From: a virus
IMG/VR virus record: IMGVR_UViG_3300044619_000755
Location: 1 to 32,312 of that record
Length of the DNA: 32,312 nt
Reading direction: 5' to 3' (one strand)
The position numbers and the translations under genes are program-made. The notes beneath the pieces are model-generated. The model ran no database searches. It saw nothing but the letters and a program-made list of their open reading frames with translations, and was not told the DNA's origin. Of the stretch, positions 11,228 through 30,355 are shown piece after piece (within the stretch, counting starts at the first letter, position 1; every line of letters starts with the position of its first letter).

Positions 11228-14074
11228 GTGGCCTCATCTTGTCCTAGTTGCGGTCAGTGCGGATGCGGCTGTCAGTGCGGGTCGCTTCCGTTCACGATGA
11301 CTGTCAACTTCCGTGAGATGTCGAACAAGACTCACGGCCCGTACTGCGCCCTGACGTTCTCGTCGAACTTCGGGAGCGGCGCGGCCGGCGTGGCGACTGA
11401 TCCCGGCGGGTGCGACGGGCCGTCTGACCCGCTGTGCGAGATACCTCCGGAGCCGGTCGACGGCGAGTGCGTGGAACCACCGGAGCCGCAGTACGAGCCG
11501 AGCAACCGCGGTCCACTGATCGGCGTGCTGCTGACCAATCCCGGTTCGTGCTACGCAAAACTTGGCAGAGTCGCCCCGGAACTGACCGCCGCCGCCGGCG
11601 GAGAAATCTCGGACGCGACGTTCACTGTCAGCGCAACGCAGCACGAAGACAGCGATGGCTTCCACTACTGGAAAGTATCGTCAATCTCCGTATCCGGCGG
11701 CGAGGGCTACCATCACCAGTCTGAACTAACGATCTCGCACTCTGTTGGCGACACGAAGGTGACCCAGGCCACGGCAAAGGTGAACGCTAATGCCGACGGC
11801 GTCCCGGTGTCTGTGACAGTAACCGAGGACGGTGAGTATTATCGGGAGTCAAAAGATGCAGAGCCTTATGTCGCTGAGGTGACAGTTACGCCGTGCGGGT
11901 TTGGAGGTGCCGCTGGCGGAATTCCTCCATGCCCCCCTAGTTATGGCAAGGAGGAGTGCGATGGCTGGCCGGCTGAGTACCTAGCCTCAATCTCGGCGGA
12001 GATAACGGCAACGGTCAACGATGATCCATACGATGAAAAATTCGGCCAGATACAGCACCTCACGATTACGAGGGGTGGCTCAAACTATCTGGCGTGGCGG
12101 TGGAGGAACGTCTGCCTAGTCCGGTCGAACATGGGTCGGAAAGGCGGCTTCGTGTTGCGTGCAACGACGCCGACGGAACTCGTGTCGGTCTCGCCGATAG
12201 ACGGGTGCTACGGAGGAGGGGCGTGTGCCAGAGTCGTCCCGCTCGGGGACAGGAGGGAACCTATTGTCTGCCTCTCCGGTGACGGCACGGGCGGGTTGAT
12301 AACGGCCGTAGTGGAGTCGGACTACGAGAGCGAGGACGATAATCCGTGGAAGCCGTACTGGTTTATATCAAAGGTGAACGCCTCTGGGGGCTCTGGATAC
12401 ACCGACGGGTCGCTCGCGTCTGTTACCTTCCTCGGCGGTCCCCCACACGCGACAGAGGATGAGACGGTGGTGGTTGAGTTGTCGGCCACTCCAATCGTCA
12501 TCGACCCGCAGACTGGCGCAAATTCGGGTGGAGCCCTTACGGGGGCAACGGTAGTGAACGGTGGGAAGTTCTACATCCAAGAGGCTTATCGGGGGAATCC
12601 GACGCCAATAAAAGAGATAGAGTTGGTCAACAGAGGGAGCGGCTACGCTAAAAAGCCGCGAGTCAGGCCGGAGGTTACGGCAGTCGCTACCGGGACGGCA
12701 GGGTCCGGTGCAACCTTCACGCCGACGCTATCGGTGGAGCAGGATGACTGCGGGGTCGACTACTGGTATGTCTCATCAGTCTCGGTTAGCGGCGGAAGCG
12801 GATACGGGGCAGGTGCGGCCCTTTCGTTTGCTGTCCAAGGCGACGGCGTATCCGAGGAGCCCGCAGAGGCATCGCTCGTCGCCGCCCCGTCCGACGGAGT
12901 GGACGGGGTTCCGACTGGCGTCACCGTAGCGAACGGCGGGAAATACTACCTAGAGGATGACGAGGGCGAGGCGTATGTAGCGGACATTGCGATTGACATT
13001 ACGCAAATACCACCGAGCAGCGGGAGCGGGGCTGAGTTTGAGGCCGAAGTAGAAACGAACCCGTCGAGCCCGGATTTTGGCAAGATCAAGAAACTGCGAA
13101 TCAAGAACAGCGGGAGTGGGCACTCTTTGTGGGGAGGCCCGACTGACTGCGAGTATTACGGCTCGTGCGGAGTTACGCTCCGGTTTCTCGGGACAAACAA
13201 AGAGCCTGAAGTCGAATACAACGGGGCTGTGTTTCGGGCGGACGATCCACTTGTTGACTGCAACTACCCGCCGCCGAACGCTACCGCCCTGCATAGCGTT
13301 GAGCGTAAGGCTGAAGCCAGTATCTATCGAGGCGGTGTCTGGGACCCCTACGAGAGATGCGCGTGTGACCCTAACGACGGCTCGAACTGCACGCCGCTTG
13401 CTCCGCCGGCCGTGTGCGGCGAGGCCACGTCATCTGTCCCGTGTCCCCCGTGCCGCGGACAGTGTTCCGAGTGCCGCCCGTGTGCCACCGGCTGCACATG
13501 CACCAACGGAAACTGCGAGCCGTGTGAGGGTCCGTGCGACGGTGACGCCCCGTGCCCCGAAGGCTGCGTGTGCGTTGGCGGAAAATGCCTGTCGGCCGGC
13601 GAGTGCTATTGCGACTGCTATGAAGTCTCTGTGAACGGGAAGTGGGGATTCAACCCTGACAATTACTCTGACCCAAACAACGAAGGCTGGGGCAGCGGTT
13701 TTGGGTACAACTGCAACCCCACCGGCGCGTCGTACACCAAACTGGACTATCCGGTTCGGTACGACGGAATATATGTGACCATCAATGGGGCGACCGCAGT
13801 AGTTCAGCAAGATTGCGACACGGGATGCGCAGGCGCGGGGTACGTGTGGCCCAACGCGACCCTGACATTCGGTGAGGACGGATGCCCCACCGGGATTGAC
13901 CTTGGAGAGCCGGTCTTTTCATGCAGTCCAATTCCTTACGAATACGCATGCAATCCGATGTTCGGCGACTGGGGCGGGACTGAGGAGGAGGTTTGCCAGA
14001 AGGCCCGGAGGTTCCTTAACGATCATGAACCGGACATTCAGTTTCGCCCCTGCGTAGAGAACCCGCTCCCATGA
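11228..14074 (+). CDS. Large cysteine-rich, repeat-containing tail adhesin
   Basis: 948 residues from GTG 11228. The N-terminus carries a short cysteine cluster (CPSCGQCGCGCQCG, residues 5-18). Residues about 98-290, 343-456 and 460-640 are diverged copies of a beta-rich module with the recurring motifs YW.VSSISVSGG.GY and GVTV.NGG.YY, sometimes ending in I..G.GY. Residues about 711-798 hold 21 cysteines in 88 residues, including two C.xGC.C..G.C units. The last 150 residues form a Gly/Asn/Tyr-rich C-terminal domain. Location after the tail-tip genes suggests the receptor-binding fibre or spike. Codon use in the module region (more ATA, AGA/AGG, TTA-type codons than in neighbours) hints at separate acquisition. 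Cysteines may form disulphides outside the cell or bind metal. Family unknown; structural role inferred. Confidence 0.7.
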   Translation: MASSCPSCGQCGCGCQCGSLPFTMTVNFREMSNKTHGPYCALTFSSNFGSGAAGVATDPGGCDGPSDPLCEIPPEPVDGECVEPPEPQYEPSNRGPLIGVLLTNPGSCYAKLGRVAPELTAAAGGEISDATFTVSATQHEDSDGFHYWKVSSISVSGGEGYHHQSELTISHSVGDTKVTQATAKVNANADGVPVSVTVTEDGEYYRESKDAEPYVAEVTVTPCGFGGAAGGIPPCPPSYGKEECDGWPAEYLASISAEITATVNDDPYDEKFGQIQHLTITRGGSNYLAWRWRNVCLVRSNMGRKGGFVLRATTPTELVSVSPIDGCYGGGACARVVPLGDRREPIVCLSGDGTGGLITAVVESDYESEDDNPWKPYWFISKVNASGGSGYTDGSLASVTFLGGPPHATEDETVVVELSATPIVIDPQTGANSGGALTGATVVNGGKFYIQEAYRGNPTPIKEIELVNRGSGYAKKPRVRPEVTAVATGTAGSGATFTPTLSVEQDDCGVDYWYVSSVSVSGGSGYGAGAALSFAVQGDGVSEEPAEASLVAAPSDGVDGVPTGVTVANGGKYYLEDDEGEAYVADIAIDITQIPPSSGSGAEFEAEVETNPSSPDFGKIKKLRIKNSGSGHSLWGGPTDCEYYGSCGVTLRFLGTNKEPEVEYNGAVFRADDPLVDCNYPPPNATALHSVERKAEASIYRGGVWDPYERCACDPNDGSNCTPLAPPAVCGEATSSVPCPPCRGQCSECRPCATGCTCTNGNCEPCEGPCDGDAPCPEGCVCVGGKCLSAGECYCDCYEVSVNGKWGFNPDNYSDPNNEGWGSGFGYNCNPTGASYTKLDYPVRYDGIYVTINGATAVVQQDCDTGCAGAGYVWPNATLTFGEDGCPTGIDLGEPVFSCSPIPYEYACNPMFGDWGGTEEEVCQKARRFLNDHEPDIQFRPCVENPLP
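11519..13147 (+). repeat. Diverged triplicated module inside the tail adhesin
   Basis: Three unequal copies at roughly 11519-12097, 12254-12595 and 12605-13147, recognised in translation by the shared YWxVSSISVSGGxGY-like strand and the GVTVxNGGxYY-like strand. The middle copy is shorter. They are diverged at DNA level, so this is an old duplication rather than a recent tandem array. Confidence 0.7.
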
Positions 14075-14508
14075 TTTCATGCCACAGACAACACCTTGTC
14101 GCCCGCTGCCGCCAACGTGGCTACACGCTGGACGAAGTGCGGCCCTGCATCGTCAGCGAAGACGGCGACCAGATTACGGTGGACGAGACGCACGGCAGTT
14201 ACCCGCGTGAGCCGAAACCGGGTTTCGTGCCGCCGCAGGCCAAGGCCGCACCGCCCGCACCGGCGAGCGGACCCGGCACGGAACTCAAGAAACTCCTGAA
14301 ACTAGTCGGCATCACCGCCACGCCCAACTGTTCGTGCAACGCCAAGGCGAAGGTTATGGACACGAACGGGGCCGATTGGTGCGAGGCCAACCTCGACCAG
14401 ATCGTAGGCTGGCTCCGCGAGGAGGCGACGAAGCGGAAACTTCCGTTTATTGACGCAGCGGGACGGCTTTTAGTCCGGAGGGCAATCAAGAACGCCCGAC
14501 GCAGATGA
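14071..14508 (+). CDS. Conserved small protein with WCEANLDxIVxWL motif
   Basis: 145 residues, ATGA-coupled to the adhesin. The first 50 residues read like a short adaptor (CHRQHLVARCRQRGYTLDEVRPCIVSEDGDQITVDETHGSYP), followed by a Pro/Ala-rich linker and a C-terminal domain of about 75 residues: TELKKLLKLVGI, CSCNAKAKVMD, ADWCEANLDQIVGWLREEA, then a basic helix (RLLVRRAIKNARRR). I recall this C-terminal arrangement from uncharacterised proteins of planctomycete genomes and their phages; no function is established to my knowledge. The C.C plus WC pattern could bind metal. Position suggests a virion-associated or tail-assembly accessory role. Confidence 0.65.
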   Translation: MISCHRQHLVARCRQRGYTLDEVRPCIVSEDGDQITVDETHGSYPREPKPGFVPPQAKAAPPAPASGPGTELKKLLKLVGITATPNCSCNAKAKVMDTNGADWCEANLDQIVGWLREEATKRKLPFIDAAGRLLVRRAIKNARRR

Positions 14509-14825
14509 AAACAAAACAGACTTGGCCCGATGATGACGATGACGATGAGACCGACCTAGATGGGGACATAATCTGGCTGCAAGGAGGCAGCAACGATGTT
14601 CAAAACCAAAAGCCTGAGCCGGGGAGTGGTGGAGATCGAACTGTCGAAGACGCCAGCGTGGGTCTTCCTGAGCAGCGATTGGCACTGGGACAGCGTCAAG
14701 TGCGACAGAGAAAAACTAGAGCAAGACCTTCGGCTCGCAAAAGAACTGGACGCTCCGGTGCTGGCGTTCGGGGACGTCTTCGACGTAATGGGCGGAAAGT
14801 TCGACCCAAGAGGAGCCAAGGATGA
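14505..14825 (+). CDS. Doubtful ORF with acidic N-terminus, overlapping the phosphoesterase
   Basis: Starts in an ATGA overlap with the preceding stop and would encode 106 residues. The first 30 residues (MKTKQTWPDDDDDDETDLDG, IIWLQGG) fill an otherwise empty 87-base gap, which is why it is listed. From 14596 on it lies out of frame within the phosphoesterase and turns Arg/Gly-rich, as shadow frames do here. It may be a translated leader that keeps ribosomes moving to the phosphoesterase start, or nothing. Confidence 0.2.
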   Translation: MKTKQTWPDDDDDDETDLDGDIIWLQGGSNDVQNQKPEPGSGGDRTVEDASVGLPEQRLALGQRQVRQRKTRARPSARKRTGRSGAGVRGRLRRNGRKVRPKRSQG

Positions 14826-15435
14826 ACTCCGCCCGGAACTGCTTCGCGGAAACTACTTCGACGAAGTGATCGAGCAGTGCGCCGAGTGGCTGAAGCCTTA
14901 CTCGAAGCAGATCGCTGTGATCTCCCCCGGAAACCACGAAACTGCGATTCGCAAGCGGCAGGAAACGTGCCTGACGACGCGACTCGTGGAGCGACTGAAG
15001 ATCGCCGGCTCGCCTGTCGTGCAAGGTGGGTACTCTGGATGGGTTTTGGTGAAGAGGAGAGACTCGAGCAAGCACGTAGCGTCCCACACGATCTGGTATC
15101 ACCACGGATACGGCGGGGGCGGTCCAGTCACTCGCGGAGTCATAGACTTTTCAAGGTTCCTTGTAGATATAGACGCCGACTCAATCGTCGCCGGACATAT
15201 CCACCAGAGGACGCTCATCGAGTCCACAAGGCAGCGGCTCACGCTTCATGGCATTCCAAGGGTTCGCCCTATTTACTTGGTGCGCTCGGCGTCATATAAG
15301 AACGAGTGCCTCACCGACGGCTGGGCGGTTGAGAAGGGCATGAGCAGCCGCCCGCTCGGTGGGTGGTGGCTCAGGCTCACAATCAACCGCGACAACGGCG
15401 AACTCAACGCTTCATATCACAATCACCCGGAGTGA
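14596..15435 (+). CDS. Calcineurin-like metallophosphoesterase
   Basis: 279 residues, ATG 14596 preceded by AAGGAGG. The two-metal phosphoesterase motifs are complete and in order: SDWHWDS (Asp28, His30), FGDVFD (Asp60), PGNHE (Asn113, His114), WYHHG (His169/170) and AGHIHQRT (His201, His203). The fold therefore hydrolyses phosphomonoesters or phosphodiesters (nucleotides or nucleic acid ends) with Mn or similar metals. In phages, such enzymes act in DNA end processing, nucleotide turnover or removal of 2',3' phosphates; the substrate cannot be told. It stands at the head of a three-gene small-molecule block with the MazG-like and DUF4406 genes, which favours a nucleotide-related role. Length is typical for phage members. 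Confidence 0.88.
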   Translation: MFKTKSLSRGVVEIELSKTPAWVFLSSDWHWDSVKCDREKLEQDLRLAKELDAPVLAFGDVFDVMGGKFDPRGAKDELRPELLRGNYFDEVIEQCAEWLKPYSKQIAVISPGNHETAIRKRQETCLTTRLVERLKIAGSPVVQGGYSGWVLVKRRDSSKHVASHTIWYHHGYGGGGPVTRGVIDFSRFLVDIDADSIVAGHIHQRTLIESTRQRLTLHGIPRVRPIYLVRSASYKNECLTDGWAVEKGMSSRPLGGWWLRLTINRDNGELNASYHNHPE

Positions 15436-15438
15436 ACC

Positions 15439-15771
15439 ATGCGAAGGCTCGAAGGCTCTGACAAGCGTATCAACCCCGGCTCGCTGGCCTTCATGGAGGC
15501 CATCGAGGAGATCCGCGAGACTCACATCAAGAAGTCACAGGACTACGGTGATCCGTCCGACGCACTTGCAAACATCAAGGTCGGTGCCGAACTCGTCGGC
15601 ATTGAGCCGTGGCGAGGGTGCGTCATTCGCATGGCCGACAAGATGCAACGCATCAAGGCGTTCTGCCGGGACGGCAGCCTAGCCAACGAAGGTTTCGAGG
15701 ACGCACTGCTCGATCTGGCCTCATACGCCGTCATCGCGCTTGTCATGTTCCGCGAAGAAGAAGTCGCATGA
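15439..15771 (+). CDS. MazG-like / DUF1599-type nucleotide-associated protein
   Basis: 110 all-helical residues. The sequence KKSQDYGDPSDALANIKVGAEL, then CVIRMADKMQRIKAF and a C-terminal DALLDLASYAVIALVMF helix, follows the pattern of the DUF1599 (nucleotide-modification-associated domain 1) proteins: K..DYG.P...N, an R..DK..R helix, and an acidic E..D..D..AY helix. These belong to the all-alpha NTP pyrophosphohydrolase (MazG) superfamily, whose acidic residues hold magnesium to hydrolyse (d)NTPs. Likely role: adjusting the nucleotide pool or feeding base modification. It starts three bases after the phosphoesterase stop and ends in an ATGA overlap with the next gene. Catalytic activity is inferred from family, not tested. 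Confidence 0.72.
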   Translation: MRRLEGSDKRINPGSLAFMEAIEEIRETHIKKSQDYGDPSDALANIKVGAELVGIEPWRGCVIRMADKMQRIKAFCRDGSLANEGFEDALLDLASYAVIALVMFREEEVA

Positions 15772-16082
15772 AGGTCTACATCGCGGGGCCGATGACCGGA
15801 CTTCCGCAGTTCAACTTCCCGGCGTTCGACGCGGCGGCTGAGAAACTTCGGCTTCTCGGCCACGACGTATTCAACCCGGCACAGGTTGACCGCGAACTCG
15901 GCTTCGACCCATCTGTGCCTTCTGTGTCAAAGGAGTTCATGCGTTCGGCACTTCGCCGCGACTTGTCGGCCATTTGTGACGCGGACGCAATCGCACTCCT
16001 CACGGGCTGGGAAAACTCTCACGGTGCCAGAATCGAGTGGATGCTGGCTGTCTATCTCGGACTGAAGATCTTTTACCTCTAA
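15768..16082 (+). CDS. DUF4406 protein, nucleoside deoxyribosyltransferase-like
   Basis: 104 residues starting in an ATGA overlap. MKVYIAGPMTGLPQFNFPAF at the N-terminus, the GHDVFNPA segment and the C-terminal RRDLSAICDADAIALLTGWENSHGARIEWMLA are characteristic of DUF4406, a family with the fold of nucleoside 2-deoxyribosyltransferases. The GPMTG loop binds the base, and the E in ARIEW (about residue 92) aligns with the family's Glu, which in true transferases serves as nucleophile. It could exchange bases on deoxynucleosides or sense nucleotides. With the MazG-like neighbour it forms a probable nucleotide-metabolism pair. Length and motif order are complete. Confidence 0.82.
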   Translation: MKVYIAGPMTGLPQFNFPAFDAAAEKLRLLGHDVFNPAQVDRELGFDPSVPSVSKEFMRSALRRDLSAICDADAIALLTGWENSHGARIEWMLAVYLGLKIFYL

Positions 16083-16096
16083 TCGGAGAAACGAAA

Positions 16097-16324
16097 ATGA
16101 ATCATCTCACTGCAACTCTCGCCGCGAAGATGCTCGAATGCTCGAGGAGCAGCGTATGTCGTGCGGCGAAAGCGAGCGGAGCCGGTATCTACGCGAACGG
16201 TCGTCTTGTTGCGATCCCAGAGAATCAACTCAACAAGATCAAGCCGTTCATTCACGAGACGGCAGGCAACCCAGATTGGATTGCCGCGAAGAAGCGGCGG
16301 AAGCCTGCCCGCCGGGGCGTGTAA
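16097..16324 (+). CDS. Small helix-turn-helix DNA-binding protein
   Basis: 75 residues from ATG 16097. The segment TATLAAKMLECSRSSVCRAAKASG fits a helix-turn-helix (LAAKMLECS, turn, SSVCRAAK), with a following wing-like IYANGRLVAIPENQLNKI, and a basic C-terminus (AAKKRRKPARRG). This resembles MerR-/excisionase-type small DNA binders. The gene lies immediately upstream of promoter element A (16390-16480), so it is the natural candidate for the regulator of that element. It is short for a repressor; dimerisation would need to come from the C-terminal helix. No paralogue is seen at element B. Start chosen by the GGAGAAACGAAA leader (GGAG at 16085) and length of the motif. Confidence 0.68.
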   Translation: MNHLTATLAAKMLECSRSSVCRAAKASGAGIYANGRLVAIPENQLNKIKPFIHETAGNPDWIAAKKRRKPARRGV

Positions 16325-16389
16325 TATATAGCCTCGCCGCCCCGGCCCCCCCACGGTGATAACCCCCCTGTATTGCTCAAGGCTAAATA

Positions 16390-16480
16390 CTATTGCACCG
16401 TTTGGCCGATAATGTAATAATAGTGGTGTCGGTTGGGCGTCCAGCCGCGTTCAGTTTCCAAGTGAGTTGAAAGGGTTCAA
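16390..16480 (+). promoter_or_regulatory. Promoter/leader element A (duplicate of 20013-20102)
   Basis: Contains TTGCAC (16393-16398), a 16-17-base spacer and an A/T-rich -10 (TAATAAT, 16415-16421). The transcript leader then carries a 7-bp hairpin: CGGTTGG (16430-16436), loop GCGT, CCAGCCG (16441-16447), followed by TTCAGTTTCC and the ribosome-binding segment AAAGGGTTCAA just ahead of ATG 16483. The whole block, from CTATTGC to GGGTTCAA, is matched by element B. It lies in a 158-base noncoding gap that otherwise holds only a C/G-rich run after the HTH gene. Confidence 0.72.
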
Positions 16481-16482
16481 CG

Positions 16483-17748
16483 ATGGCTATCAAGTTCCGC
16501 ATCGGTCAGGGCATCAAGACTCGTTCCGGCAAGATCATCACGATCCAGAAGATCGAGTGGGTCGCCGGGGCTGGCTCGCGTCGCAAGCGGATCATCACGA
16601 TCAAGTGGGAAGACGGCACCGAGAACCGCGTCACGAAGCGAGCCCTGACGAAGATGACGACCGATGCGTCGCAAGACACGCCCGACGATGATGATGACGA
16701 CAACGATGATGTCTCGACTCCGGCTCCGTCCGTCCCGACGAATCCGGGTCTCAGCAGCGATCTGGCTCAGGCGATCGCTCAGGCTGTCGCTCCTCATGTG
16801 AAGAGCAACATCAGCCGAGAGGAAGTCGAACGCATCGTTGACGAGCGTGTCGTTGACGTTGTCATGCCTCGTCGCGTCGAGTGCGTGAGTCCGGTCACCG
16901 GCGAAGTCCGCGACGTCGGAGTTCAGCACGTCTACTTCGAGGCGATCCGCCGTATCGCTATGAATAGGATGAACCTCTGGCTCACCGGCCCCGCTGGTTC
17001 TGGCAAGACGAGCGTCGCTGCGGCAGTCGCCGAGTCGCTCGATCTTCCGCACTACGCCCTGAGCGTCTGCTCATTGACGAGCAAGGCCGACCTGATCGGC
17101 TACAAGAACGTGAGTGACGGTGCCTATGTCAAGACGGACCTCCGTCAAGCGTATGAAGAGGGCGGCGTCTTCTTGCTCGACGAGGTTGATGCTGGCAACC
17201 CGAACGTGATGGTGATCGCGAATGCCATGCTGGCGAACGACCAGTGTGCGTTCCCTGACGGCATGGTGAAGAAACACAAAGACTTCATCCTGCTGGCCGG
17301 AGCGAACACCATCGGCCTCGGTGCCGATAAGCAGTATCTGGGACGCAACGCTCTGGACAAGGCGACGATTGATCGGTTCGTGATGATGGAGTTCCCGTAC
17401 GATCCGGCCGTGATGGCGGTCATGTGCGGCGTCGCTCCGTCGTGCTTCGGTGAACTGCGTCGCCCGAAGCCGATTGAGTTCATCCAGACCGAGGACAAGG
17501 CCGATTCGGATAACGATGCACGGCTGAAGGCCGCGACGAACCAGCGGTGCGATGCGTTCTGCCGAACAGTGGCGAAGGTGATGGGCGTCGTTGACGAACT
17601 CAAGATTCGCCATCTGGTCGGCCCTCGTGCCGCGTCGAGCGGCTGCAAGTTGATCCGGCTCGGCTTCACGACCGACGACGCGATGAACATGGCAGTCTGG
17701 AAGGGTCTCGACGCTGACACGGTGTCCAAGGTCATGGCTCGGGTCTAA
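16483..17748 (+). CDS. MoxR/CobS-type AAA+ ATPase
   Basis: 421 residues. N-terminal 60 residues form a small basic beta domain (KFRIGQGIKTRSGKIITIQK...KRIITIKWEDG), then an acidic linker (six to eight Asp near 68-76), a coiled segment, and the AAA+ domain: Walker A GPAGSGKT (169-176), Walker B VFLLDEVD (229-236), sensor-1 AGAN (272-275), and an Arg finger candidate in TIDRF (Arg298). This is the MoxR/CobS branch, whose members remodel target proteins or insert metals, usually with a von Willebrand-type partner. In phages such a gene is often followed by a partner gene, as here. Transcribed from element A. Target unknown. The acidic-linker architecture is unusual and may tether it to a partner. 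Confidence 0.88.
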   Translation: MAIKFRIGQGIKTRSGKIITIQKIEWVAGAGSRRKRIITIKWEDGTENRVTKRALTKMTTDASQDTPDDDDDDNDDVSTPAPSVPTNPGLSSDLAQAIAQAVAPHVKSNISREEVERIVDERVVDVVMPRRVECVSPVTGEVRDVGVQHVYFEAIRRIAMNRMNLWLTGPAGSGKTSVAAAVAESLDLPHYALSVCSLTSKADLIGYKNVSDGAYVKTDLRQAYEEGGVFLLDEVDAGNPNVMVIANAMLANDQCAFPDGMVKKHKDFILLAGANTIGLGADKQYLGRNALDKATIDRFVMMEFPYDPAVMAVMCGVAPSCFGELRRPKPIEFIQTEDKADSDNDARLKAATNQRCDAFCRTVAKVMGVVDELKIRHLVGPRAASSGCKLIRLGFTTDDAMNMAVWKGLDADTVSKVMARV

Positions 17749-17756
17749 CTCATCAA

Positions 17757-17769
17757 CCAACAGAAAGGA
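17757..17769 (+). repeat. Leader copy 1 of CCAACAGAAAGGA
   Basis: Same 12-14-base ribosome-binding leader as at 20525-20539 and 20785-20798 (shared core CCAACAGAAAGG). Here it precedes ATG 17779, to which the AAAGGA has nine bases of spacing. Confidence 0.6.
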
Positions 17770-17778
17770 AGCATGAAC

Positions 17779-18627
17779 ATGAACGACAGCATCAAGATCG
17801 ACGAGCGGCACGAGTTCGGCTCACTCGCCGAACTCATCAAGGACAACCTCCGCTGGAACGGAGCCCCTGTCGATGGGGCGTCATCGCACGAACGCGGAGG
17901 CACTCGGTTCAACGACTTCACCGAGTCATATGATGCGGCAGTGAAACTCACGCAGAACGGCTGGCGTGAAGGTGCGAAGCGAGTCGAGTCGCTTCGCCGC
18001 GACCTCGACGATGCCGTGCAGACTCTGGTCGCAGCGAAGGCCGCGAACATGGTCTATGCGGTGGACGGCGATTGGGTGGATGTAGGCAGGCTTGTGACGG
18101 GCGACCCCGAATGCTGCGGCTCGTGGCATATTCAAGGCGACGACCGCAACGAGAAGGTGATCAAGGTCGTGGCGAACGTGAGCGTGAGTTGCGCCGTGAA
18201 CGCGGAGACGATATTCGCTCGCGGTGCAGCCTGCCTCGCTGCCGTTGACATCATCGAGTCGCTCGGCAAGCGAGTCGAACTCTGGATCGGCCTCGGCCTG
18301 AACGACTGCGGCAAGCGGATAGAGACGCACGTTCTCGTGAAGCCTGCGAGCCAGCCGCTCGAACTCGACCGGCTGGCGTTCACGCTGTGTCACGCCTCAA
18401 TGCTGCGGCGAGTCCTGTTCGCCCATATGGAACTCAACAGGCACAATCCGTGCCGTACATATCCCGGGCCGGTCTGGTCCGAGGATGCGATCATCCTGCC
18501 CGAACTCAAGACCGGACGCGCTCCGGGCCGCGAGGAGAACATAAGGGAGGTCATCAAGATCTGCGAGTTGGCTGGCATCGTCTTCAATGCAGAAGACCTC
18601 GCCGGTCTTGTTTCTAGTGCGTTGTAA
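17779..18627 (+). CDS. Phage AAA+-partner protein, DUF7192-like
   Basis: 282 residues from ATG 17779 (an ATG at 17773 is too close to the AAAGGA). The order of motifs, F..LAELIKDNL.WNG, then FTESYDAAVKLTQNGWREG, VDVGRLVTGDPECCGSW and RGAACLAAVDIIESLGKRVELWIGL, matches what I recall of phage proteins labelled DUF7192, often next to CobS-like AAA+ genes. The ESLGKRVELWIG region could be part of a von Willebrand-like alpha/beta fold, but a MIDAS motif is not clear. A role as substrate adaptor or partner for the ATPase is inferred from adjacency and shared transcription. Family memory is moderate, function unproven. Confidence 0.6.
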   Translation: MNDSIKIDERHEFGSLAELIKDNLRWNGAPVDGASSHERGGTRFNDFTESYDAAVKLTQNGWREGAKRVESLRRDLDDAVQTLVAAKAANMVYAVDGDWVDVGRLVTGDPECCGSWHIQGDDRNEKVIKVVANVSVSCAVNAETIFARGAACLAAVDIIESLGKRVELWIGLGLNDCGKRIETHVLVKPASQPLELDRLAFTLCHASMLRRVLFAHMELNRHNPCRTYPGPVWSEDAIILPELKTGRAPGREENIREVIKICELAGIVFNAEDLAGLVSSAL

Positions 18628-18657
18628 TTATCACCATCACAGGAAGGAAACTGAAGC

Positions 18658-18966
18658 ATGAAAGCCCACTTCATTCGGATCGACGCTGAGGAAATGACAG
18701 ACCTGCTCTGTGCGACGCTGGTTTGCCGCCTCCGTGAACTCAAGTGGCCTGCCGGTGAGGCCGCGATGGCTGCCGACAAGGCACTCAAGATGGTTTACAG
18801 CAGGATGGAGGACATTCAGGTGCAGGCGGCTCAGGACATGGGCCGGATCGCTGCCGGTGGCGGCAACGAGGCGATGATGCAGAACATGGCGAGGGCGGTC
18901 TTCGCCGTGGAAGGGATCAAGATTGCCGATGAACTCAACAAGTCCCGCCTCGCGGGCTTGAACTGA
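18658..18966 (+). CDS. Small helical protein, paralogue of the next gene
   Basis: 102 residues, mainly helical, with AGGAAGGAAA upstream of ATG 18658. A helix pair (LVCRLRELKWPAGEAAMAADKALKMVYSRM) and a C-terminal ARAVFAVEGIKIADELNK are matched by the following gene's FVKRLRMHGWSREAVDGVKVQAIDEMREAF and EAEVFAEFALLGIRVADSF. Spacing between these landmarks is also similar, so the two genes look like a diverged tandem duplication. No known domain. Membership in the AAA+ block suggests a regulatory or accessory subunit. No membrane segment or signal peptide. Identity is low, so paralogy is an inference. Confidence 0.6.
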   Translation: MKAHFIRIDAEEMTDLLCATLVCRLRELKWPAGEAAMAADKALKMVYSRMEDIQVQAAQDMGRIAAGGGNEAMMQNMARAVFAVEGIKIADELNKSRLAGLN

Positions 18967-18978
18967 AAGGGAAAGAAG

Positions 18979-19299
18979 ATGAACTACATGAACATCATCA
19001 TGGACACGCTCGGATCAAGGACGCCTCGTGCTGCCGGAGTCTGCTGTGCGGCGTTCGTCAAGAGGCTGCGGATGCACGGGTGGAGCCGGGAAGCAGTGGA
19101 CGGCGTGAAGGTGCAGGCTATCGACGAGATGCGAGAAGCCTTCGATGACTGCTCGTCGCACCTTGCGAGCAACTGCGTGAGACTCCTGGAGTCCGGCGAG
19201 GACTTCACTGAGGAGCGTCTGCGTGATTTGGTTGAGGCCGAAGTGTTCGCCGAGTTCGCGTTACTCGGCATTCGGGTGGCTGATTCTTTTGACCTTTGA
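18979..19299 (+). CDS. Small helical protein, paralogue of the preceding gene
   Basis: 106 residues, helical, beginning MNYMNIIMDTLGSRTPRAAGVCC. It shares the xVxRLRxxxW helix, the charged VKVQAIDEMREAF stretch and the VFAE..LLGIRVADSF ending with the gene at 18658. The final part is acidic (GEDFTEERLRDLVEAEVF). Spacing of 12 bases with AAAGGGAAAG as ribosome binding site shows one operon. Function unknown; two copies side by side could form a heterodimer or be alternative versions for different partners. Confidence 0.58.
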   Translation: MNYMNIIMDTLGSRTPRAAGVCCAAFVKRLRMHGWSREAVDGVKVQAIDEMREAFDDCSSHLASNCVRLLESGEDFTEERLRDLVEAEVFAEFALLGIRVADSFDL

Positions 19300-19313
19300 G
19301 CAAGGAGGCTGTC

Positions 19314-19553
19314 GTGGTTGATTTCAACAAGATCTCTGCTAAAGACCTTTCGGTCGGCGATCAGTTCAGGCTGGCAGTCGGCGAGGTCATCGCCGATGCG
19401 ATGAAGGCCGCGATGATGCTTGTCCAGTCTGGAGCCCTCAACGGCCTCAGTCACAACAAGCGGGCTGAAGTCCTGACGGCGATGACGATTCCGAGCGTCT
19501 ACAAGATCGAGGGTGTCATTGAGGAATTTGCCAAGCGGAAGGAGGCCGAGTGA
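19314..19553 (+). CDS. Small unknown protein
   Basis: 79 residues from GTG 19314, chosen because AAGGAGG (19302-19308) lies 5 bases upstream; the TTG at 19296 is an alternative that overlaps the preceding gene. The protein is helical: SAKDLSVGDQFRLAVGEVIADAMKAAMMLVQSG and a C-terminal VYKIEGVIEEFAKRK. Nothing recognisable. Its stop overlaps the next start by one base (TGATG), so both are made from one message. Small polar helical proteins of this kind recur through this block. Confidence 0.5.
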   Translation: MVDFNKISAKDLSVGDQFRLAVGEVIADAMKAAMMLVQSGALNGLSHNKRAEVLTAMTIPSVYKIEGVIEEFAKRKEAE

Positions 19554-20035
19554 TGGTTACTCAGGATCACTACGTCGTGAACGACAAGATCACGCTTCGT
19601 CAGGGAGACATCTTCCGTGCGAAGGCTGGCCCGTACTACATCGCACGCGACGAGAAAGGAGGGAAGCGTCGCGTGCCTATGGCGGCGAAGGGGCCGTTCA
19701 GGTTCGTTCGCTACTGCGAGGCGTCGAAGCGGAAGTGGATCGAGGCTTGGTCAGTGAAGGAAGGCAGCATCGCCATCCTGTCGCTGAACGGGCGTCGCTC
19801 GCTGATGCCCGGAGTCCTGATACCGCGTCCGTATCACATCACCGGGCGAGTCAGCGCGAAGAAGGCGATCAAGATCGCGGCGAAGATGGCGATGAAGGGA
19901 AAGAAGCCGCGTCGGGTCAAGGAGCAGGCTGCGGAGGCGTTCGCGCCGCCCGCAAAACCGGCCCGCGACACGCGGCAGGCTGCGGTTGACTCGGTTTTGG
20001 CGGGGCTGCTCCCTATTGCCCCGTTTGGTGGATAA
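19553..20035 (+). CDS. Small basic protein of unknown function
   Basis: 160 residues, start ATG 19553 in a TGATG overlap, with GGAGG at 19541-19545. The N-terminal 90 residues look beta-rich (VVNDKITLRQGDIFRAKAGPYYIAR, KWIEAWSVKEGSIAILSL), possibly an SH3-like or OB-like barrel. The C-terminal 60 residues are strongly basic and Ala-rich (KKAIKIAAKMAMKGKKPRR...KEQAAEAFAPPAKPARD), which suits nucleic-acid binding. The last codons and the stop TAA (20033-20035) lie inside element B: its last few residues (PIAPFGG) are encoded by the promoter's upstream part, so the promoter duplication shaped the C-terminus. No known family. Confidence 0.5.
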   Translation: MVTQDHYVVNDKITLRQGDIFRAKAGPYYIARDEKGGKRRVPMAAKGPFRFVRYCEASKRKWIEAWSVKEGSIAILSLNGRRSLMPGVLIPRPYHITGRVSAKKAIKIAAKMAMKGKKPRRVKEQAAEAFAPPAKPARDTRQAAVDSVLAGLLPIAPFGG

Positions 20036-20102
20036 GGCTATATTTACAGTGTCGGTTGGGTGTTCCAGCCGCTCGGTTCAGTTTCACACGAAAGGGTTCA
20101 AA
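20013..20102 (+). promoter_or_regulatory. Promoter/leader element B (duplicate of 16390-16480)
   Basis: TTGCCC (20016-20021), 17-base spacer, TATATT (20039-20044). A 7-bp leader hairpin follows: CGGTTGG (20053-20059), five-base loop GTGTT, CCAGCCG (20065-20071). Next come GGTTCAGTTTC and AAAGGGTTCAA before ATG 20105. Compared with element A, the hairpin stem is preserved while the loop differs in length and sequence and the spacer is different, i.e. the stem is under constraint. The -35 side overlaps the end of the preceding coding sequence. Confidence 0.72.
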
Positions 20103-20104
20103 TC

Positions 20105-20512
20105 ATGTTTCGCAACATCATCAAGAAGTTCGCTCTGTCGCTGGTCGCCGATGACATCAAGTCCATGATCAACGATGCGGTTGCCGATGCGATGGAGGGC
20201 ATCTCGGAACACATCGACCTCGACGATCTGGCGTCCACGGTCGCCGAGTCGATCGAGATCGACACCGACGAGGTCGCTCGTCACATCGACACCGACCGCA
20301 TCGCCGAGTCGGTCGCAGAGAACATCGACACCGACCAGATCGCTGACAACGTCGCTGGCAACATCGACGTTGACACCGTCGCTGAGTCCATCGCCGAGAA
20401 CATCGACATGGAGGCCATCGCCGAGAACATCGACCTCAGCGATCTCGCGAAGGCCATCATCAAGGTTCGCCAGATGCAGCGGAAGACTCGGCTCATGAAG
20501 GCTGGCAAGTGA
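20105..20512 (+). CDS. Acidic tandem-repeat protein
   Basis: 135 residues. After a basic/hydrophobic helix (MFRNIIKKFALSLVADDIK), residues 36-117 consist of tandem units of 13 residues (for example AESVAENIDTDQI, ADNVAGNIDVDTV, AESIAENIDMEAI) with occasional 8-residue half units ending in IDxD.I/V. The C-terminus is again basic (KVRQMQRKTRLMKAGK). The regular IA..VA.NID.D pattern gives an amphipathic acidic rod or helix bundle. Such a shape could be a scaffold, DNA mimic or membrane-surface coat; none is proven. It is the first gene of the second promoter in this block. No known family recognised. Confidence 0.6.
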   Translation: MFRNIIKKFALSLVADDIKSMINDAVADAMEGISEHIDLDDLASTVAESIEIDTDEVARHIDTDRIAESVAENIDTDQIADNVAGNIDVDTVAESIAENIDMEAIAENIDLSDLAKAIIKVRQMQRKTRLMKAGK

Positions 20513-20524
20513 TTCACCCAACTC

Positions 20525-20539
20525 CTCCAACAGAAAGGA
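20525..20539 (+). repeat. Leader copy 2 of CTCCAACAGAAAGG
   Basis: Ribosome-binding leader that shares 14 bases with the one at 20785-20798 and 12 with 17757-17769. It precedes ATG 20548. Confidence 0.6.
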
Positions 20540-20547
20540 ACCTAAAC

Positions 20548-20778
20548 ATGAAACACTCCGACATGTCCCGTCGTGATCGCCAGTATTTCGCCCAGAGGAA
20601 GCGTCAGGCACGGGCTCACGAGCGGCTGCTCGGCGGTGCCGCAGCGATGGATCTGGCGTTCCTCAATCGGGCTCGCAAGTTCATGGAGCGTCGCGGACTC
20701 TACTCGAACCCGAAGGCTCGGGCCGCGCTCGCTGAACTTGAGTTCGAGACGGCCGATCTGATCAAGAAGCAGTCCTGA
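20548..20778 (+). CDS. Small basic unknown protein
   Basis: 76 residues from ATG 20548, preceded by the repeated AAAGGA leader. The N-terminal 30 residues are strongly basic (SRRDRQYFAQRKRQARAHERLL), then a helical segment with AFLNRARKFMERRGLYSNPKARAALAELEFETADLIKK. Charge and length suggest a small nucleic-acid-binding or protein-modulating peptide. No domain recognised. It belongs to the operon started by element B. Confidence 0.5.
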   Translation: MKHSDMSRRDRQYFAQRKRQARAHERLLGGAAAMDLAFLNRARKFMERRGLYSNPKARAALAELEFETADLIKKQS

Positions 20779-20784
20779 AACACA

Positions 20785-20798
20785 CTCCAACAGAAAGG
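20785..20798 (+). repeat. Leader copy 3 of CTCCAACAGAAAGG
   Basis: Third copy of the ribosome-binding leader, shared with 17757-17769 and 20525-20539. It precedes ATG 20808 with slightly longer spacing. Confidence 0.6.
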
Positions 20799-20807
20799 GT
20801 CAATCAA

Positions 20808-21101
20808 ATGGCTTCCATGTCTTACTGCCTGTTCCAGAACACTGCCAGCGAACTCGATCGCTGCGAGGACTCTCTTGAGGCTCTGTTCAACGACGTCGAT
20901 TCCAGCCAGATCGACTCCCTTGAAGAGCGTGAGGCCGCAGTGAGGTTAGTCGCTACCTGTGCTCGCATCATCGACATGATGATGGAGTGGACTGGTGCTG
21001 ACGATGTCGCTGATGTGAACAACCCTGCGATCAGGGCAGCGATCAAGAACGCCCGGAAGGTCGCGGCTGGATATTGTGATGTCGGTACGGATGGCGAATA
21101 A
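20808..21101 (+). CDS. Small acidic unknown protein
   Basis: 97 residues from ATG 20808. Acidic and helical: ASELDRCEDSLEALFNDVDSSQIDSLEEREAAVRLVATCARIIDMMMEW, then VADVNNPAIRAAIKNARKVAAGY. Three to four cysteines are scattered without a metal-site pattern. No domain recognised. Contrasts in charge with its basic neighbour at 20548, so the two could bind one another, but this is only an inference from composition. Confidence 0.5.
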   Translation: MASMSYCLFQNTASELDRCEDSLEALFNDVDSSQIDSLEEREAAVRLVATCARIIDMMMEWTGADDVADVNNPAIRAAIKNARKVAAGYCDVGTDGE

Positions 21102-21135
21102 AACGGAGTTGCAAATCGGAGGCAAGGAGGCCACC

Positions 21136-21207
21136 ATGAACGTCGAAGTGTTGATTCAGTTGCTCCTGCTCGTTCTGCGGATTGTTTCCGCAGGGCAGGC
21201 CGACTGA
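21136..21207 (+). CDS. 23-residue hydrophobic micropeptide
   Basis: ATG 21136 with AAGGAGG (21124-21130) six bases upstream; ends TGA 21205-21207. The sequence is MNVEVLIQLLLLVLRIVSAG plus QAD: a hydrophobic run of about 15 residues flanked by single charges, long enough to enter or lie on a membrane. The strong ribosome binding site is the main evidence. It could be a small membrane effector, a toxic peptide or a leader peptide for the next gene. No homologue recognised. Confidence 0.45.
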   Translation: MNVEVLIQLLLLVLRIVSAGQAD

Positions 21208-21243
21208 GGTTGATTCCACTAGGCTGAAGAAAGGGACGATGTT

Positions 21244-21657
21244 ATGTCAAAGCACGATGAGAAGATGGCGGCCCTGCTCGCTGAGGTCGCGAAGGTTCTT
21301 GAGCCGCTCGCCGCGAAGGACGCGGCGGCTGCCAAGATCGCCAAGGAGGTTGGGAAGATGGTCAAGGAAGACAAGGTTCGTGGATTCAAGGTGACGAAGC
21401 GGTATCGGGTCAAGTTCTCGCCGGGGCAGTTGATGCTGCTCGACGGGAAGGGGCCGAAGGACCGCCGAGTCGCGGCCGCGAAGGTGAATACCTCGCTGTC
21501 GAAGTTGCTGAACTCGGACGTTGAACCCGCCGAGGTCCGCGACACGATGGTCAAGGTTCTCGGGTCGATGAAGGAAATCGGTGCGTGGAACAAGCACTCC
21601 GAGGCCCTCGTCGATCAGGTGCTGGAGGTCTACACTCGCGAGCGGTCGAACGCTTGA
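21244..21657 (+). CDS. Unknown protein, last gene before terminator
   Basis: 137 residues from ATG 21244. A Lys/Ala-rich amphipathic helix (AALLAEVAKVLEPLAAKDAAAAKIAKEVGKMVKED) precedes a compact region with a possible beta hairpin (FKVTKRYRVKFSPGQLMLLDGKGPKDRR) and a helical C-terminus (VRDTMVKVLGSMKEIGAWNKHSEALVDQVLEVYTRE). No family recognised. It closes the operon; a strong intrinsic terminator begins 32 bases after its stop. Confidence 0.55.
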   Translation: MSKHDEKMAALLAEVAKVLEPLAAKDAAAAKIAKEVGKMVKEDKVRGFKVTKRYRVKFSPGQLMLLDGKGPKDRRVAAAKVNTSLSKLLNSDVEPAEVRDTMVKVLGSMKEIGAWNKHSEALVDQVLEVYTRERSNA

Positions 21658-21686
21658 CGCAAGTCACGCGAGGCTGATCCGCGATC

Positions 21687-21719
21687 AAGCGGGGCGACTT
21701 CGGTCGCCCCGCTTTTTTT
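21687..21719 (+). terminator. Strong intrinsic terminator with UUCG loop
   Basis: GCGGGGCGAC (21689-21698), loop TTCG, GTCGCCCCGC (21703-21712), then seven T. A further AA/TT pair extends the 10-bp stem. It separates the AAA+ block from the next operon. Confidence 0.95.
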
Positions 21720-21765
21720 GTCTGATCGCTCGTCACGGTTCCGTGGAAAAAGTTCCAAGATGGGC

Positions 21766-21795
21766 TTGCTAAATCTTTCTGGACTGCAATATGAT
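21766..21795 (+). promoter_or_regulatory. Sigma70-like promoter after the terminator
   Basis: TTGCTA (21766-21771), 18-base spacer, TATGAT (21790-21795). It directly follows the terminator and shares TATGAT and the 18-base spacer with the promoter at 2199. Predicted transcript start about 21802, leaving a 20-base leader with AAGGAGG (21811-21817) before ATG 21823. Confidence 0.7.
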
Positions 21796-21822
21796 CCCGC
21801 CCCGCAAGACAAGGAGGCAGTG

Positions 21823-22239
21823 ATGCAGGCAGCATGGACGCGGGCAGCATGGACGCGGCACGACCGGCCCCGGCCAACCCTCGCAAGGGGGGGCCGGGGC
21901 CGCAGGGCCGGGGCGTCCCCAGCCGGTGAGGGGGGCCGCAGCCGCAGGGCCGCAGGGGGCCGCAGGGCCGGGGCCGCAGCCGCAGGGCCGCAGGGCCGGG
22001 GCCGGGGCAAACGGGCCGCAGGGGGGCCGCAGGGGGCCGCAGCCGCAGGGGGCCGCAGGGCCGGGGCCGCAGGGCCGCAGGGCCGGGGCCGCAGGGGGGC
22101 CGCAGGGCCGGTCACGCTGACCACGGCTGAACTGAACGCGGTCGCTCAGGCTTACGTCTGGTTCGCCGTCAATCGTGACGTCGAGCCTGCTCTCGTGCTG
22201 CGACGACTGATGCAGCGTTCACTGAAGAAAGGAAAATGA
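21823..22239 (+). CDS. Arg/Gly/Ala-rich protein built on a CCGCAG repeat
   Basis: 138 residues from ATG 21823. It opens with a perfect 15-base tandem duplication (GCAGCATGGACGCGG at 21829-21843 and 21844-21858, giving AAWTRAAWTR), continues in a low-complexity R/G/A/P/Q region (residues about 20-95), and ends in an ordered 42-residue helix (VTLTTAELNAVAQAYVWFAVNRDVEPALVLRRLMQRSLKKGK). The basic disordered part is reminiscent of RGG-like RNA- or DNA-binding tails. Promoter, ribosome binding site and the conserved-looking C-terminus favour a real gene. The repeat has no stop in several frames, so its exact frame is supported mainly by its ends. Stop overlaps the next start region. Function unknown. 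Confidence 0.6.
   Translation: MQAAWTRAAWTRHDRPRPTLARGGRGRRAGASPAGEGGRSRRAAGGRRAGAAAAGPQGRGRGKRAAGGPQGAAAAGGRRAGAAGPQGRGRRGAAGPVTLTTAELNAVAQAYVWFAVNRDVEPALVLRRLMQRSLKKGK
21890..22110 (+). repeat. CCGCAG-based GC-rich repeat
   Basis: About 220 bases containing 17 CCGCAG hexamers separated by GG, GGGG and GGCCGGGG-type linkers. The composition is almost pure G and C except for the A of each hexamer. Spacing is irregular, so this is a degenerate short-unit array likely grown by slippage rather than a CRISPR or a satellite of fixed unit. Confidence 0.9.
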
Positions 22240-22688
22240 TGCAGACTTTCTTACCGTATGAAGACTTCGCACGATCCGCGAGCGTCATCGACACGAAGCG
22301 TCTTGGAAAGCAGCGAGTCGAGGCGAAGCAGATCCTGATCGCCCTCGGCGTCAACGTCGGCGATCACATTGGCAACGCATCGAGCCGATGGAGGCACCAT
22401 CCGGCCGTCTTGATGTGGAAGGGCCACGAGGACTGGCTCGCGACGTATGCGGTGTGCATCTGCCGCGAGTGGATCAACCGTGGATGCCGTGATTCTTTGC
22501 TCGGGCAGTTCGCTGATGCCGCAGCGATGATGCCGATTCAGCAATATCCAAAGTGGCTCGGCGTCGCCGAGTTCCACAGATCGCATCGAAGCAATCTGCT
22601 CCGCAAGTACCCGGAGCATTATTCGCGGTTCGGGTGGTCCGAGCCGGATGACCTTGAGTACGTCTGGCCCTCACGGGGCGAGGAGTAA
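22239..22688 (+). CDS. Pyrimidine-dimer DNA glycosylase-like protein (MSMEG_6728 family)
   Basis: 149 residues from ATG 22239 (MQTFLPYEDFARSASVID), chosen over ATG 22236 for the family start and a five-base gap to AAAGGA. The hallmark strings MQTFLPY.DFARSA, LGKQRVEAKQIL and SSRWRHHPAVLMWKGHEDWLATYA match the MSMEG_6728/pyrimidine-dimer glycosylase-type family (related to T4 DenV by Pfam grouping). In DenV-like enzymes the N-terminal amine and a Glu near residue 23 do the chemistry; here the R.E.KQ region (about residue 28) has the Glu. Likely repairs UV-damaged phage or host DNA. Catalytic function is inferred from family, not residue-proven. Confidence 0.75.
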   Translation: MQTFLPYEDFARSASVIDTKRLGKQRVEAKQILIALGVNVGDHIGNASSRWRHHPAVLMWKGHEDWLATYAVCICREWINRGCRDSLLGQFADAAAMMPIQQYPKWLGVAEFHRSHRSNLLRKYPEHYSRFGWSEPDDLEYVWPSRGEE

Positions 22689-22691
22689 ACG

Positions 22692-22961
22692 ATGAGTGTC
22701 TTGTATTCAGCCTTCGTCAGCAGGCAGATGACCTTCGACGAGCCGAGCGAAGTCGTGGTCTGCATCATGGAGGCGAAGGCGGCAGGGTTTGAGTTGGAAG
22801 GCAAGAGGATGATCAAGCAGCCGAACGGGGCTTACATCCCAGACGACGGAACGTGGTTCGCGGATCGCGGCGATGCGGTTCGGAAAGCCATCGAGATTCT
22901 TGAGGGGCGAATGGCGTCATTTGCCAAGAAGATCGCGGAACTGAAGAAGGAGGTTTGCTGA
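22692..22961 (+). CDS. Small unknown protein
   Basis: 89 residues, three bases after the preceding stop. First half beta-like with hydrophobic strands (VLYSAFVSRQMTFDEPSEVVVCIMEAKAAGFELEG), then IKQPNGAYIPDDGTWFADRGDAVRKAIEILEGRMASFAKKIAELKKEV, ending in a helix with coiled-coil spacing. No family recognised. Its stop (22959-22961) is three bases before the next start. Confidence 0.5.
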   Translation: MSVLYSAFVSRQMTFDEPSEVVVCIMEAKAAGFELEGKRMIKQPNGAYIPDDGTWFADRGDAVRKAIEILEGRMASFAKKIAELKKEVC

Positions 22962-22963
22962 AG

Positions 22964-23323
22964 ATGTCGTACACTGAAACCATCACGGACGAAGAGAACA
23001 TTCTCGGGTTCGGTGCTGGCTCCACCGTGGAGGCCGAACTCTACTACACGATCGACCCCGGTGATCCGGGTTGTTGGCGGGACTCCAACGGCGACGGATG
23101 GCCGGCGACGCCTCCGTGCGTCGAGTTGGAGGCGATCTCGATCCTCGTCGTCCGCGACGCCGAAGGCAACGCAGTGACGCTGACGGCAGAGCAAGAGGAC
23201 GCGGCGGTCAAGTTCGTTGACGAGGACACGCAACTCCGCTGGGAGTCAATCGAAGAACGGATCTTCGATGATCTGGCGGATCACAGCGAAGACGCAAACT
23301 GGGAGGACGCACGACATGAGTGA
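22964..23323 (+). CDS. Unknown acidic protein
   Basis: 119 residues from ATG 22964 (MSYTETITDEENIL); AAGGAGG (22947-22953) lies 10 bases upstream, while the in-frame TTG at 22955 is nearly on top of it. The protein is acidic, with a beta-rich N-terminal half (VEAELYYTIDPGDPGCWRDSNGDGWPA, VELEAISILVVRDAEGNAV) and an acidic helical C-terminus (EQEDAAVKFVDEDTQLRWESIEERIFDDLAD). No domain recognised. The stop overlaps the next gene by 8 bases. Confidence 0.5.
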   Translation: MSYTETITDEENILGFGAGSTVEAELYYTIDPGDPGCWRDSNGDGWPATPPCVELEAISILVVRDAEGNAVTLTAEQEDAAVKFVDEDTQLRWESIEERIFDDLADHSEDANWEDARHE

Positions 23324-23591
23324 TTTCATAGCCGATGGACACGCAAGGGGCCGGACGATCACGGTGTCAACGACCAGAAGCGAGAGGCTTGCGAAGCGTC
23401 ACGCGATGCTCTGGATGGTGGCTCGCGCTGCTGCCAGAATCGCTGACGACGCGAACCTGTATTCCCGTGGCCTCTACGAGATCCATCCGGCGTTGATGCT
23501 TCGGCTCCGCGAGGCCGTCGACCGCATCAGGCCGGACATGAAGCGCATGGAGGCAGAACTCGCCTCTGGAGGTGACCAAGATGCAGAGTGA
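23316..23591 (+). CDS. Unknown helical protein overlapping the helicase start
   Basis: 91 residues from ATG 23316, which overlaps the preceding stop by eight bases. Basic N-terminal half (ARGRTITVSTTRSERLAKRHAMLWMVARAAARIADD) and helical C-terminal half (YSRGLYEIHPALMLRLREAVDRIRPDMKRMEAELASG). No family recognised. Its last 11 bases overlap the helicase start at 23581, so translation of the helicase is likely coupled to it. Confidence 0.5.
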   Translation: MSDFIADGHARGRTITVSTTRSERLAKRHAMLWMVARAAARIADDANLYSRGLYEIHPALMLRLREAVDRIRPDMKRMEAELASGGDQDAE

Positions 23592-24957: not shown

Positions 24958-25214
24958 AACCGTGCAGTCGCTGCGGCAAGAGGCCGCGAATCGAAGGGCT
25001 GGGCATCTGTGACCCGTGCGTCAGTGCGGCGGCAGAGGCGAGGCAAAAGGAGGCCGAGGTCGCAAGGAGCATCAGGCTCGATCTTGCGAAGACCACTGCG
25101 AAGACCACCGGGCTTCCGCAAGACTTATATAAGTGTCCGATCCGCGAGCGTCGCGGTCGAAAGGAGTTGAGGGTGTTTCTGGAGGACGATGAAAGTGGCA
25201 GCGACATTGAATGA
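24954..25214 (+). CDS. Zinc-ribbon protein
   Basis: 86 residues, starting in an ATGA overlap with the helicase stop. CSRCGK near residue 4 and CDPC near residue 19 give a short CxxC...CxxC zinc knuckle, followed by a charged helix (AAAEARQKEAEVARSIRLDLAKTTAKTT), a KCPIRERRGRKE segment with one further Cys and an acidic C-terminal tail (FLEDDESGSDIE). Such proteins usually modulate DNA- or RNA-acting enzymes; nothing specific recognised. It is coupled to the helicase and overlaps the next gene by 26 bases, which suggests co-function. Confidence 0.65.
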   Translation: MKPCSRCGKRPRIEGLGICDPCVSAAAEARQKEAEVARSIRLDLAKTTAKTTGLPQDLYKCPIRERRGRKELRVFLEDDESGSDIE

Positions 25215-25617
25215 TCTTCTTGCTCGCGTCGTGAAGAAGCAGGCCGAGCATGACGAGGCGATGATTCGGGCGAAAGCCATCAAGACTGAGTTGGAAGAAA
25301 TCGAGAGCCTCGCCGCCGAGGCACTCGCAGTGAGCGGGCTGGAGAAAGTGACCTGCTCCGGCAGGTCGTGGCGGATCGAGACTGCAACCTACTTGAACGT
25401 GCCGAAGGATAACCGCGAGGCTGTCTTGGAGGCTGCGGTCAAGGAGGGCATCTCGGACGAGTTGACGACCGTGAACACGTCCACGTTGAAGGCGTGGCTG
25501 ACGGAGCGTCACGGCGATGATGCCGACAAGGTTGAATCGCTGGCGGCTGGGACTGCGTTCGAAGGTTTGGTGACTGAGTATCGTGAGATCCGGCTGCGTA
25601 GCCGGACGTCTGGTTGA
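25189..25617 (+). CDS. Phage protein with coiled-coil N-terminus, replication-type
   Basis: 142 residues, start ATG 25189 inside the end of the preceding gene. An N-terminal coiled coil (LNDLLARVVKKQAEHDEAMIRAKAIKTELEEIESLAAEALAVSG) is followed by a compact domain (EKVTCSGRSWRIETATYLNVPKDNREAVLEAAVKEGI, LTTVNTSTLKAWLTERHGDDADKVESLAAG, FEGLVTEYREIRLR). I recall similar unnamed phage proteins, often found beside ssDNA-binding and replication genes, with the N-terminal coil and a V.G..VYL.....A..DR-type core. Function unknown; a recombination or replication accessory role is inferred from context. Confidence 0.6.
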   Translation: MKVAATLNDLLARVVKKQAEHDEAMIRAKAIKTELEEIESLAAEALAVSGLEKVTCSGRSWRIETATYLNVPKDNREAVLEAAVKEGISDELTTVNTSTLKAWLTERHGDDADKVESLAAGTAFEGLVTEYREIRLRSRTSG

Positions 25618-25644
25618 TATTCTTTTTTCGCAAGGAGCGAGAAC

Positions 25645-26397: not shown

Positions 26398-26428
26398 GCA
26401 AGGAACGCTCTGGCGTGTCGTTCGTCAA

Positions 26429-26476: not shown

Positions 26477-26507
26477 ATTCTCACGGCCATCGAAAGGACA
26501 CGGCGGC

Positions 26508-30321: not shown

Positions 30322-30355
30322 TCAGTGACGAATGTTTTACCATCCTTTCCATTCG

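Follow-up and report, generated by a model that had tools for sequence, protein, structure and literature searches.

Two related promoter-leader elements, A (16390 to 16482) and B (20013 to 20104), in a 32,312-base IMG/VR record of an uncultivated bacterial virus (analyzed at full length and called the window here) form a real regulatory module, probably paired promoters whose RNA has a cap with a protective or regulatory role, because related phages keep both positions and keep the pairing of a short leader hairpin despite changes in its letters. The window carries head, tail, and replication genes. Our best explanation, which we hold tentatively, is that A and B are coordinated sigma-70-type promoters with a stabilizing hairpin at the 5′ end of each transcript.

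Aligned within the window, A and B were 73.7% identical over 95 nt (E 6.8e-12) and had a common layout, consisting of TTGC(A/C)C, 17 nt, an A/T-rich -10, 8 nt, a 7-bp stem, GTTCAGTTTC, GAAAGG, and the start codon. A sequence-only reading of this DNA had proposed a duplicated promoter/leader element, and every part that it named was found in place or directly adjoining. Both elements and the genes around them lie on the plus strand. In element A, the promoter (16390 to 16421) comprises a -35 TTGCAC (16393 to 16398; the stretch from 16393 to 16405 reads TTGCACCGTTTGG), a 17-nt spacer, and a -10 AATAAT (16416 to 16421). It is followed by the hairpin CGGTTGG(GCGT)CCAGCCG (16430 to 16447), at about +2 to +4 of the predicted transcript, and by a leader (16448 to 16482) with GTTCAGTTTC and a GAAAGG Shine-Dalgarno sequence, which is common to element B. 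The promoter of element B (20013 to 20044) has a -35 TTGCCC (20016 to 20021; TTGCCCCGTTTGG occupies 20016 to 20028), a 17-nt spacer, and a -10 TATATT (20039 to 20044) and precedes the hairpin CGGTTGG(GTGTT)CCAGCCG (20053 to 20071, from pattern and fold) and a leader (20072 to 20104) with GGTTCAGTTTC and GAAAGG. The Shine-Dalgarno sequence is contained in AAAGGGTTCAA, present at 16470 to 16480 and at 20091 to 20101, and lies 8 to 9 nt 5′ of ATG 16483 and ATG 20105, the corrected starts of the AAA+ gene and of the gene after B. The hexamers are of the sigma-70 type and stand 17 nt apart, within the 16 to 18 nt expected of that type, with 8 of 12 consensus bases in A, 9 of 12 in B, and 8 to 10 in relatives; a genome scan for a host returned distant homologues only. 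The stem begins 8 bases 3′ of the -10 in both window copies and 2 to 11 bases 3′ of it in the listed relatives, the start site being predicted. The 7-bp leader hairpin that had been claimed for both elements was recovered: its exact pattern occurred twice in the window compared with 0.01 times expected from shuffles, folds of the 40 nt after the -10 gave a single dominant hairpin, and each hairpin taken singly outdid shuffles only moderately (z of -2.1 and -2.6). One stem pair is U-G rather than Watson-Crick, a second helix, weak and located at the ribosome-binding site, appeared only in folds of 63 to 64 nt, and Rfam gave no match in the window.

Operon A opens with a gene for an AAA_5/CobS-like ATPase (16483 to 17748; PF07728, E 1.4e-13; phrog_249, E 4.8e-43), followed by a gene for a DUF7192 protein (17773 to 18627; PF23822, E 2.9e-42). 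The first gene of operon B (20105 to 20512) encodes a 135-aa protein that is 70% identical to a protein of the relative L067; it contains imperfect 13-residue repeats (IAE.IDTD..) and matches ArdA below threshold only. As the sequence-only reading had it, B overlaps the end of the preceding small gene (19550 to 20035), which ends ...LLPIAPFGG* within the element, with its stop codon at 20033 to 20035; the last codons (PIAPFGG*) are at the same time the element B promoter. Elsewhere in the window, a B-promoter-like sequence without the leader (TATTGCACCGGCTGGCAAAAAGGGCTATAAG, 24923 to 24953) lies just 5′ of ATG 24954, and two strong hairpins that resemble terminators, each with a T tail, lie at 21687 to 21714 and 26429 to 26462. 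A long run of GGGCCGCAGGG-type repeats in an open frame occupies the same place in the window (21896 to 22107) and in L067 (18120 to 18320).

Relatives were collected by a scan with the phosphoesterase-like gene (14596 to 15435), which returned 80, and by a scan with an AAA+ alignment, which brought in L157 (G014) along with phages at a greater distance; the close relatives escaped protein scans that used the AAA+, DUF7192, or helicase gene as a single sequence. L067 (G011) and L069 (G012) are syntenic with the window over the HTH, AAA+, DUF7192, and 19550 genes. Searching related phages, a check suggested by the sequence-only reading, revealed the element at both positions in three further phages (G011, G012, and G014), with A lying 5′ of the AAA+ gene and B lying where the 19550 gene ends; G014 has a third copy in addition. 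Counted from the -35, the stop codon of the 19550 gene has an identical position in the window, G011, and G014, with the B promoter again making up the last codons and stop. L091 carries two copies, and no AAA+ homologue was found in it. Beside HTH genes and 5′ of its promoter, L091 also has a tyrosine recombinase gene (11511 to 12893), and some relatives may therefore be temperate. Related promoters lacking a hairpin occur in L067 (18057) and L069 (10570), so the hairpin is a nonfixed part of the promoter. Strict concerted evolution of the copies was unsupported, since A of the window was 82% identical to the A copy of L067 and 77% identical to B of the window; mean identity within phages (77%) exceeded the between-phage means (60% and 58%).

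A promoter followed immediately by a hairpin was present 5′ of the AAA+ gene in 11 of the 12 phages with that gene; the A site of G020 has no hairpin. Stem sequences are unrelated between phage groups, and some stems contain a mismatch or an internal loop. Summed over eight distinct groups, the stem score was 81, compared with 50.7 ± 5.6 in shuffles, none of 1,000 of which reached 81. Taken singly, 15A, 16A, 18A, and 19A did not beat shuffles, and groups 15, 16, 19, and 20 were not significant alone. Covariation of the stem, also proposed as a check, was examined in an alignable set (the window and A and B of G011 and of G014), the alignment of which is biased toward structure because the loops were taken out by hand before counting: 97% of cells paired, two of the seven pairs had changed on both sides, and the covariation score was equalled by 5 of 500 shuffles. 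Pairing has thus been kept as the letters changed. Selection on the structure, as the earlier reading claimed, is supported through the pairing in relatives; its own argument, that the stem is unchanged while loop and spacer differ, is weak, as GTTCAGTTTC and GAAAGGGTTCAA are as invariant as the stem in the two window copies.

The two matches in IMG/VR to an exact query combining the -35 motif and left stem (L006 and L007) were chance occurrences within coding genes. A hairpin pattern search gave 47 matches, nearly all coding; only the match in L020, a different phage of 78 kb, combines a promoter with a 13-bp hairpin at +1. There, at about 2100 to 2180 on the minus strand, TTGACG-17-TAAGAT is followed immediately by a 13-bp hairpin containing the window stem sequence, and the gene 3′ of these is one that we take to be rIIB-like; the match may be a coincidence. 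No clear promoter with a +1 hairpin was seen in Tunturi_4, RHph_X2_24, Silverleaf, or Sephiroth, which are known phages with the AAA+ gene.

Under the explanation that we tentatively prefer, A and B would be two members of one tailed-phage promoter set, with each sigma-70-type promoter presumably read by the host polymerase. Judging from the -10-to-hairpin distance, the 5′ end of the transcript is predicted to lie within a few bases of the short G+C-rich hairpin. By a known mechanism, the hairpin would most likely protect that end from end-dependent decay, and long-lived AAA+/DUF7192 and operon B mRNAs would result; translation would then start from the ribosome-binding site 20 to 25 nt 3′ of the stem. 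Base-paired 5′ ends are poor substrates for RNase E, and a 5′ hairpin hinders conversion by RppH and can stabilize mRNA (PMC3997798). The stabilization reading fits because the position of the hairpin matches that of a paired 5′ end hindering RppH and RNase E. The arrangement resembles the 5′ stem-loops of ompA and papA (PMC3997798) in having a G+C-rich hairpin at or near the predicted 5′ end, followed by an unstructured leader and a ribosome-binding site, but the hairpin described here belongs to a duplicated phage promoter unit.

One DNA-binding protein, perhaps the product of the gene at 16097 to 16324, might switch both operons through a dyad in the promoter spacer. This gene, called helix-turn-helix in the sequence-only reading, encodes a small 75-aa protein that is a MerR-like winged helix according to its predicted structure (AlphaFold2 pLDDT of 77; best Foldseek matches BldC, RacA, CarH, SoxR, and Xis, none with an E value of <0.06) and is a candidate regulator of both promoters. 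The spacer dyad, CCTATTG-N11/12-CGATAGG, was found at 13 sites in five phages. Its right half-site had a mean match of 5.4 of 7 across the 13 sites, compared with 3.6 ± 0.2 in shuffled spacers (0 of 2,000); it overlaps the stop codon in B-type sites, which could add to its conservation there, and is present in A-type sites too. In the window, the dyad is degenerate (5 of 7 in A and 4 of 7 in B) and is not significant in A or B alone; the form in A is ACTATTG (16389 to 16395) and CGATAAT (16407 to 16413). Different palindromes occupy the spacer in the copies of more distant AAA+ phages, for example, CGCGACGTCGCG in G017 and G015 and GCACCG-N4-CGGTGC in G020. G020 (L255 17-10960) carries CTTGCAATGCACCG....CGGTGCTATACT five times; this promoter has an almost perfect spacer dyad and lacks a clear hairpin.

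Genes for proteins homologous to the 16097 protein lie 5′ of the AAA+ gene in L067, L069, and L157 and 5′ of a promoter in L091. The five phages that have the CCTATTG dyad gave strong matches; elsewhere, only weak ones were obtained (L159/G015 and G024). This co-occurrence fits a shared regulator without proving it, because those phages are the closest relatives. Control of A and B by the winged-helix protein is no more than plausible. As at promoters of the MerR family, the dyad (in relatives) is centered on the spacer between -35 and -10 and a small MerR-like winged-helix gene is nearby; unlike in that family, the spacer is 16 to 18 nt and the 16097 protein has no effector domain. MerR activator promoters typically have a spacer of 19 to 20 nt. 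The two-promoter regulon of the sequence-only reading stands as a two-promoter arrangement, with positional orthologues of A and B in three further phages; as a regulon under a candidate regulator it is plausible, because a MerR-like winged-helix gene precedes A in four phages.

We consider it unlikely that the hairpin is instead an antitermination signal in the nascent RNA (HK022 put-like or a phage-specific nut/boxB), which by itself or with a bound phage protein would modify polymerase and allow readthrough of the long operons A and B. In HK022, each early operon has one of two related put RNAs, with putL just 3′ of its promoter; put RNA is ~70 nt long and has two stem-loops (PMC9378689). 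The likeness is that related hairpins lie 3′ of two phage promoters, at the starts of two operons in one phage, that they vary between phages, and that the two promoters of L091 share an identical hairpin. However, the element here is a single hairpin of 5 to 13 bp, in contrast to the two long stem-loops of put, and its letters, loops included, vary freely among relatives. A terminator search between A and B turned up no strong one beyond shuffle expectation (17 versus 14.4 over 13000 to 32312). Put-like antitermination thus agrees with the presence of the element at two operons but disagrees with its size. A wider version also seems unlikely, in which a fast-changing, phage-specific leader hairpin, shared by the operons of a phage, would be read by a phage protein or polymerase (put-/nut-like antitermination or a switch) across a large group of uncultivated CobS-like AAA+/DUF7192 phages.

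It is improbable, in our estimation, that the copies are a mobile cassette of promoter and stem-loop like the PeSLs of T4-like phages, serving as recombination points that exchange a gene block, with little RNA role for the hairpin. As PMC4503421 presents them, PeSLs are promoter and stem-loop units that mediate shuffling, and the title of a 2014 paper cited there calls them promoter-terminator motifs. In common with the T4-like PeSLs (Arbiol 2010 and Comeau 2014, as cited in PMC4503421), there is a duplicated sigma-70-like promoter and then a stem-loop amid small accessory genes. Two near-direct repeats flank 3.6 kb; the first gene after B differs among the window, L067, L069, and G014, and two genes after B are in reversed order in the window relative to L067. 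Against this, the cassettes would lack the U-run, which follows the stem at G014 site 14C alone among the window and relative copies, and each phage has only two or three copies, at conserved rather than scattered places. No empty or excised form was seen when the window and relatives were compared for recombination between copies. A PeSL origin would account for the duplication and for the gene changes 3′ of B, whereas the absence of a terminator speaks against it. The missing U-run likewise rules out an intrinsic terminator (except at 14C), and a pattern scan gave only a weak terminator-like match for element A.

The chance appears slim that the start-site inverted repeat acts in DNA, as the operator of a dimeric repressor, rather than as an RNA hairpin. 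Phage operators often overlap start sites, and a strand test of RNA against DNA palindrome gave no preference for RNA (P = 0.37 for all elements and 0.15 for 12 less redundant ones). However, the repeat sequences differ among phages that share the spacer dyad, loops of 3 to 6 nt put the half-sites close together, and G-U occurs at pairs 4 and 7 of the alignable set, a combination that RNA accepts as a pair but that would be mismatched in a DNA dyad. Very improbable and largely refuted is a recent leader duplication with a functionless hairpin, as suggested by the window having only two copies and by the unstructured leader parts agreeing between A and B no less than the stem does, since diverged relatives retain the hairpin in place.

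In a phage group that we know from metagenomes alone, A and B provide a regulatory unit that can be tested. The AAA+/DUF7192 operon retains its promoter and leader while surrounding genes change, and the conserved pairing with free letters makes a role of the 5′-terminal hairpin in phage mRNA testable by arm swaps.
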